From Burkholderiaceae bacterium (GTDB lineage Bacteria > Pseudomonadota > Gammaproteobacteria > Burkholderiales > Burkholderiaceae_E): a stretch of DNA of 32,052 bases. The position numbers were made by a program, and so were the translations under genes. How positions within the stretch are numbered: the stretch's first letter is position 1; each line of letters opens with the position of its first letter. The stretch spans positions 1-32,052 of the forward strand of contig JAJTYR010000041.1 of NCBI GenBank assembly GCA_021463505.1. Reading direction: 5' to 3'. This document shows positions 26,799 to 30,091 of this stretch, in pieces. A model generated the notes under the pieces. That model saw nothing but the letters and a program-made list of their open reading frames with translations, was not told where the DNA came from and searched no databases.

Positions 26799-28453
<1,655 letters not shown>

Positions 28454-28457
<4 letters not shown>

Positions 28458-28619
28458 GAAGCTGTGAACCAATTACCCATGCCCGTCTTGCGCGCCCAGA
28501 TGCGCCCGCTCTTCGTTGCAAATGCTCGCCATATCCCCGATATGGCTGCGCTTTGCGCCTCGATCGGACGCATCTGGGCGCGCCTTCCGGGCACGGCCGA
28601 TTGATTCACAGCTTCTGAG
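28454..28619. mobile_element. 156-bp MITE-like palindromic element between boxC and boxB
   Basis: The element 28459-28614 has perfect 10-bp terminal inverted repeats AAGCTGTGAA / TTCACAGCTT, flanked on both sides by the 5-bp direct repeat CTGAG (28454-28458, 28615-28619). Inside, a perfect 15-bp pair (28490-28504 with 28569-28583) and a central pair GCCATAT / ATATGGC (28528-28534, 28540-28546) share the same centre near 28536.5, so the whole element folds as one long stem. Imperfect pairing also joins the outer and 15-bp arms (CCCG/CGGG regions). It has no coding capacity. A non-autonomous mobile element or structured intergenic repeat fits, and I cannot name a family. It fills most of the 206-bp gap between boxC and boxB. 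Confidence 0.7.
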
Positions 28620-28663
28620 AACGCACCAACGTTCCGGCGTCATCCGAATTGCGGAGCCCTCCC

Positions 28664-30091
<1,428 letters not shown>

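Follow-up and report, generated by a model that had tools for sequence, protein, structure and literature searches.

RESULTS

A mobile palindrome inside the boxC stop codon

The long palindrome that separates boxC from boxB in this Burkholderiaceae genome is a mobile repeat and not a fixed RNA element. Its insertion inside the boxC stop codon rebuilt the TGA exactly, and most of the intact relatives that we examined at other genes had done the same. Since the element starts with GA and ends with CT, the stop codon is restored and the next gene remains intact. The window, i.e., the whole stretch of 32,052 nucleotides that was analyzed, contains the following features at this junction (a slash marks the insertion point in a target).

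26799..28457, plus strand: boxC, 2,3-epoxybenzoyl-CoA dihydrolase (TIGR03222, 992 bits)
28454..28455, plus strand: native CT that precedes the insertion point and forms the left half of the target CT/GA (clean boxC ends of relatives read GTCTGA; left bases 1-2 are native at L074)
28455..28457, plus strand: boxC stop codon TGA, made of a native T and the first GA of the element (boxC frame)
28456..28616, plus strand: inserted element, GAG...TTCT, 161 bp (copies elsewhere; break set by empty sites)
28456..28473, plus strand: left terminal arm, family form GAGAA(nn)TGTGAACNAAT (alignment A1)
28503..28573, plus strand: core hairpin module, common to other palindromic repeats (R1 match of 89.4 bits, E 4.6e-24, R1 being built from alignment A2 with this copy among its aligned members)
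28600..28616, plus strand: right terminal arm, family form ATTNNTTCACA(nn)TTCT (alignment A1)
28617..28619, plus strand: native GAG that follows the insertion point and forms the right half of the target (by analogy with L137, L158, L308, L318, and L337, where right bases 3-5 are native)
28664..30091, plus strand: boxB, benzoyl-CoA 2,3-epoxidase subunit (TIGR03225, 900 bits)

A preliminary description of this DNA had reported a palindrome with nested inverted repeats, flanked on both sides by CTGAG, one of them containing the boxC stop codon. Both statements were confirmed, the first by the sequence, the arm complementarity, and the fold energy, the second by the sequence and the boxC and boxB profile matches, the TGA lying in the left CTGAG. 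Symmetric arms of 59 nt at 28453-28511 and 28562-28620 are 80% complementary, and a perfect 8-bp arm pair at 28528-28546 encloses the loop. The folding energy was -101.3 kcal/mol, compared with -52.8 ± 3.8 kcal/mol for shuffled sequences (z = -12.9), a value equalled by none of 200 shuffles. Complementary bases occupied 52 of 83 symmetric positions, the top value of 2,000 shuffles being 35. The extent given to the element fared less well: the palindrome stands, but the empty sites described below set its bounds at 28456-28616 (161 bp), and the CTGAG pair is not a duplicated target.

The boxB gene was present in 17 of the 18 genomes of the genus, and 18 boxB loci yielded 17 boxC-boxB junctions, with none recovered from the second boxB of G011. 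As judged by the core string, the element occupies one of these 17 junctions, that of the source genome. In the other 16, the intergenic distance was 15 to 96 nt, except for G012, where it was 186 nt without a core. Clean boxC ends in G005, G002, G003, and G013 read GTCTGA. The search for empty junctions in relatives, as proposed in the preliminary description, thus showed this copy to be private to the source genome among the 17 junctions. At the same boxC stop, G006 (L085) and G015 (L086) have a short hairpin or half hairpin that resembles the two ends of the element joined together. It is perhaps the remnant of an earlier insertion, and these two genomes were therefore excluded from the clean empty sites. 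In the boxC-boxB mRNA, the element would fold into a long stem, which could undergo processing or protect the boxC end.

Copies in the source genome and in other Burkholderiales

A second full copy lies on contig C66 of the source genome (93%, opposite strand), partial copies occur at the ends of contigs C41 and C64 or close to them, and other places in this genome hold fragments. Among the source genome and 60 relatives, 17 of 61 genomes matched at an E value of 0.001. Full or nearly full copies were found in 8 of the 60 relatives (G005, G009, G012, G014, G016, G017, G022, and G023), and the remaining matching relatives contained mostly the core or fragments. When the GTDB genome collection was scanned with a pattern for the left end, 76 stretches matched, from Variovorax, Acidovorax, Paenacidovorax, Ramlibacter, Xenophilus, Ideonella, Rubrivivax, Lautropia, Thiomonas, and other Burkholderiaceae; as this pattern fixes the left CTGAG, left-end variety is under-counted in these stretches, and source-genome records may be left out. 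One of the 76 records is labelled as a planctomycete, yet its flanks are those of a Burkholderiales record (L119, L172). Six plasmid records matched, none of them covering 80% of the query, and the phages searched with the element gave no match. The proposal that a mobile structured repeat had landed at the end of boxC, together with the suggested check for further copies, was thereby borne out: copies with different flanks occur at unrelated sites in the source genome and in other Burkholderiales, and orthologous sites lack the element.

Counted with both pentamers, 61 of 73 intact copies measure 167 bp, and forms that keep both ends span about 64 to 362 bp. At the lower limit, L099, L129, L173, and close end pairs represent short forms of approximately 64 to 88 bp that have both ends and lack the core, which suggests repeated internal deletion. 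Forms of approximately 360 bp with the same ends were seen at L133 (363-724), the interior of which is other GC-rich sequence, and twice in G005 (C1:335382-335731 and 2064367-2064720). Solitary left ends of approximately 32 bp stand directly before genes, including the likely ATG start, at L111 (3948, minus strand) and L148 (6141); by eye, one of these genes resembles xerC and the other a sigma factor gene.

The literature searched, which covered few subscription journals and in which four core strings matched no paper, named this palindrome family in no title or abstract start among the matches listed. The general kind, namely, dispersed palindromes that lie close to the 3' ends of genes and from which stop codons may be supplied, is already known from GTAG REPs (PMC3733652).

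Empty sites place the insertion point between YT and RA

To locate empty sites, we joined the flanks of insertion sites and looked for the resulting sequences in relatives. Uninterrupted orthologs were obtained for 8 of 10 Variovorax sites queried (L108 and L126 being the same site from two species), for 12 of the 38 sites from the genus and family (20 regions read; alignment was partial for L073 and the box site and not clean for L019), and for 7 of 14 further Variovorax sites (20 regions read, picked as informative). The 64-bp short form L173 was left out of this test, and L139 had no empty ortholog among those read. Six sites were informative.

L137: filled CTGAG...CTAAG; empty CTAAG in 3 genomes
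L158: filled CTGAG...CTGAC; empty CTGAC in 2 genomes and CTGAT in 1
L308: filled TTAAG...CTGAC; empty CTGAA in 2 and TTGAA in 2
L318: filled CTAAG...CTGAA; empty CTGAA in 1 and CTGAG in 2
L337: filled CTGAG...CTAAT; empty TTAAG in 2, TCAAG in 1, and CCAAG in 1
L074: filled GTGAG...CTGAG; empty GTGAG in 3

At the first five sites, right bases 3-5 are native and the left GAG or AAG derives from the element; at L074, left base 1 is native and the right CT derives from the element. The break at these six sites lies between YT and RA (YT/RA), with left bases 1-2 and right bases 3-5 native. Nothing is duplicated at insertion, the left GAG (or AAG) and the right CT being the element's own. Two sites are discordant: L306, with CTAAG on the right and CTGAG in two relatives, and L073, with CCGAG on both sides and CTGAG in two partly aligned relatives. 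This tally of six against two counts L031, L315, and L324 on neither side.

Other arrangements of the target were considered and rejected. Duplication of a 5-bp CTGAG target is ruled out by L158 and L137, where left and right differ and one side alone matches the empty site. Insertions of the IS5/IS1031-like kind generate a 3-bp TNA target duplication; a TGA duplication of this type is ruled out by L137, L308, L318, and L337, and L073 is the sole site that favours it. A break after YTRA, with the target entirely 5' of the cut, fits L306 and fails at the same four sites. The flanking pentamers had initially been taken for a duplicated target that would differ from copy to copy. This idea had to be abandoned: the pentamer is nearly constant, and the six empty sites assign both the left GAG and the right CT to the element.

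Copies have one orientation and lie mostly at stop codons

We fetched 40 copies regardless of their pentamers, a set without pentamer bias that partly overlaps the 73 intact copies. Right bases 1-2 were CT in 40/40, right base 4 was A in all 40, and right base 5 was G in 19, C in 14, T in 5, and A in 2. Orientation relative to the cut strand was constant (40/40), with no reversed copy. Among the 73 intact copies, right bases 1-2 were CT in 69 and not CT in 4, and about five target positions were conserved, in a set in which left base 5 is forced to G, one copy was detected twice in L128, and some site pairs are orthologous. Dropped before this count were copies with fewer than 15 flank bases on a side, 28 detections without a readable core orientation, and reverse detections, 3 of which were not also seen forward.

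In 54 of the 73 intact copies, the left TGA is the in-frame stop codon of the upstream gene, as judged from 60 upstream codons that form an open frame with high third-position GC and not from annotation. The remaining copies lay in another forward frame (6), in reverse coding sequence (4), or in no coding sequence (9). Control CTGA motifs from the same loci (n = 1,186 scored, with 65 of 1,251 unscored) comprised 111 in-frame stops, 694 in another forward frame, 225 in reverse coding sequence, and 156 in none. The difference between 54/73 and 111/1,186 is highly significant (Fisher p = 1e-35), and control CTGAG motifs gave 30/167 (9 of 176 unscored). When only positions outside other coding frames were compared, the values were 54/63 for the copies, 111/267 for CTGA (p = 1.4e-10), and 30/56 for CTGAG (p = 2e-4). 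Selection against gene damage must account for part of this excess. Since GA stands to the right of the break in 17 of the 19 copies that are not at a stop codon, the short target itself is probably intrinsic, with stop codons being the places at which copies are retained. In a match from a Variovorax plasmid (71% of the query covered), an annotated acyl-CoA dehydrogenase gene ends at base 4, and its TGA spans the left boundary.

The stem is conserved and the core is common to other repeats

In an alignment of 24 diverse copies (A1), 96.8% of 1,200 cells were in standard pairs, whereas slid structures paired only 26-37%. Both sides had changed in 20 of 50 pairs (114 cells), a figure as high being reached in 0 of 500 shuffles, with the structure derived from the same alignment and related sequences able to exceed such shuffles. 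The C66 copy (L006, 1039-1204) is a near-perfect palindrome that includes the outer pentamers, the right one being CTCAG, which suggests that one arm was copied from the other. Such arm conversion can mimic covariation and may explain part of the stem changes. The inner core, which is better conserved than any other part of the element, has retained unequal internal loops. The preliminary description had named conservation at the same place, with covariation, as the mark of a fixed RNA element; covariation is present across the family, but the place is not conserved (1 of 17 junctions).

The core at 28503-28573 also matches repeats with other outer ends in the source genome, on contigs C35 and C56 and, truncated, on C13. 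The model R1, which comprises 18 cores, was matched at an E value of 1e-5 in 24 of 80 genomes sampled from the order, among them the source genome. A single genome had as many as 39 matches, several of which were close inverted pairs. One pair was flipped from G-C to C-G in 3 of the 18 members. The outer ends around the core include GGGCCTGTTCACAC, CTAGTGTAGTGCTTCG, AGTGTCCTGAGTTG, and GGGAAACGCTGAACAAGTC. That repeats with unrelated ends have one core in common points to a module for which a binding partner is worth seeking.

Several further observations concern these repeats. A second palindromic family of approximately 270 bp has the same core and inverted ends near GGGCCTGTTCACACTACGATCGTCCC at L021, L036, L037, and L039 (approximately 1340-1620, core orientation), its left end not being found by pattern at L021. 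At L299 to L305, loci from further genomes of the order, the same core sits within repeats that have different inverted ends, and by eye some of these ends are like those of IS families. In G072 (L381, 1297-1356 and 2864-2968), an IS110-family element has split a copy of the palindrome within the palindrome core, and in G005 (L383 and L385, 313-2084), an IS110-family element directly adjoins the second palindrome family twice, with an identical junction in both cases.

DISCUSSION

Possible mode of movement

We give an even chance to the reading that this is a non-autonomous, one-hairpin element of about 161-162 bp that enters an oriented YT/RA strand without duplication, through HUH/RAYT-like single-strand transposition in trans. 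The element would move as folded single-stranded DNA, would be cut after CT at both ends, and would be joined after YT in the target. What the copies themselves show is mobility, entry between T and R of YT/RA at the six informative sites, one orientation, a location mostly within TGA stop codons, and a conserved stem. The enzyme, an HUH tyrosine transposase of the IS200/IS605 or RAYT type, would be supplied in trans, and copies would persist mainly at gene 3' ends because other landings would damage genes. We also put forward, more tentatively, the possibility of a mobile hairpin aimed at stop codons, in which the whole element is a single-strand transposon whose GA...CT design cuts and heals T/GA, and whose portable core has been adopted by several Burkholderiales palindrome families with unrelated ends.

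The targets of IS200/IS605 elements are conserved 5' of the cut; in the palindrome family, unlike these, the RA 3' of the cut is conserved as well. The available part of one study reports that TnpA-REP cuts REP hairpins at CT in vitro (PMC8266576), and entry of the element after CT, on one strand and without duplication, agrees with this. Searches for the Y1 transposase (PF01797) gave no match in the source genome (G000) or in the copy-bearing genomes G005, G009, G014, G016, G023, G067, and G072, several of which are drafts (G016 is 65% complete). Outside the genus, a Y1 gene was present in 11 of 14 copy-bearing genomes searched. A pattern search of 41 Y1 loci from other genomes revealed no element end, an R1 scan of 34 of them gave only two weak matches (E 0.03 and 0.09), and no RAYT-type gene was found beside copies. 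Neither Y1 nor IS110 genes track the copies, so that the mode of movement is something that we infer.

A classic MITE, mobilized by a DDE insertion sequence that duplicates a short target (either the 5-bp CTGAG or, in the TNA manner, the 3-bp TGA), would account for the long, nearly perfect inverted ends, for their retention in forms of about 64 to 362 bp, and for CGA on both sides at L073. We consider this unlikely, since the 5-bp duplication fails at L158 and L137 and the 3-bp duplication at L137, L308, L318, and L337, and since the orientation, constant in 40/40, is unlike that of a symmetric-ended MITE. In a search of 7 genomes for a parent insertion sequence with the same ends, the distance between neighbouring facing ends did not exceed about 340 bp, bar two pairs of 6.4 kb (G017 C79, the second end being a separate copy) and 29 kb (G009 C25). 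No facing pair lay between about 0.4 and 6 kb in these 7 genomes, nor did any of 20 loci examined, each of at most 8 kb, have a right end beyond 362 bp. The element is short and non-coding and has terminal inverted repeats, as MITEs do, but it has no target duplication (L073 and L306 discordant), and no parent insertion sequence was found in these searches. The early wording "MITE or mobile structured repeat" is therefore retained in its second half; with a nearly constant pentamer and six empty sites showing element-borne ends, the element falls outside the strict sense of MITE (DDE transposase, target duplication, and parent insertion sequence).

Movement of the palindrome by another site-specific enzyme, such as an IS607-kind serine recombinase, a tyrosine recombinase, or a host factor, appears quite improbable. 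Oriented, sequence-specific entry without duplication would fit several of these, and neither Y1 nor IS110 genes track the copies, but conservation of a folded strand is not expected of double-strand recombinases. Somewhat less probable still is mobilization in trans by an IS110-type recombinase acting around a CT core without target duplication. The constant orientation and the lack of duplication fit, the source genome has one IS110 gene, and IS621 is reported to recombine around a CT core dinucleotide and to insert into REP palindromes (PMC11208160, available part). However, PF01548 was not found in the copy-bearing genomes G014, G009, G017, G023, and G067 and was present in G006 and G015, both without long copies; 20 IS110 loci showed no intact element end by pattern, three of them holding a core; and IS621 has nine programmable non-core target positions (same source), compared with about five conserved positions here. 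A structured RNA fixed in the box operon, where it would tune boxC and boxB, is very improbable. Its location within the operon, its very stable fold, and the family-wide covariation speak for it, whereas the absence from the other 16 junctions recovered in the genus, the presence of the same family at unrelated genes, and the lack of any Rfam match in the window at the gathering score speak against it. A conserved box-operon RNA is refuted by these 16 junctions; a regulatory effect private to the source genome is still conceivable.

Significance and comparison with known systems

The ends of the element and its target fit together in such a way that the protein is left without a scar when insertion occurs in a stop codon; this would explain how operons can receive long hairpins harmlessly. 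The many insertions with empty sites provide material with which to address the long-standing question of how REP-like repeats spread.

The comparisons that follow draw on the available parts of the papers cited. Bacterial MITEs such as ERIC, NEMIS, Nezha, and RU-2 are similar in their size of 70-300 bp, inverted ends, location beside genes, and RNA fold (PMC3733652), RU-2 measuring 168 bp (PMC2759123); the element differs in its lack of target duplication, constant orientation, and stop-codon target, and no parent insertion sequence was found. With IS110/IS621 it shares the CT core and insertion into palindromic repeats (PMC11208160), but it has about five conserved target positions, and the IS110 gene does not track copies. 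The TIR repeats of TIRtrons are likewise families of long inverted repeats, proposed to be moved by RAYT-like enzymes (PMC3733652), whereas our element was not found beside a RAYT-like gene. Strand-specific entry by a short sequence without duplication (L306 and L073 discordant), hairpins, and constant orientation are features in common with IS200/IS605 (PMC8266576, and in part general background), in contrast to which the whole element is one hairpin without a gene and its target is conserved on both sides of the cut. The REP/RAYT (TnpA-REP) system also comprises dispersed, non-autonomous palindromes near gene 3' ends and involves cutting at CT (PMC3733652, PMC8266576). It differs in that the source genome has no Y1 match and none was found next to copies, and in that REPs of the GTAG type measure 20-40 bp and start with GTAG, as opposed to about 161 bp and a 5' GAG here. 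GTAG REP ends often supply the TAG stop codon to the flanking ORF (PMC3733652), much as this element supplies the GA of the boxC TGA.
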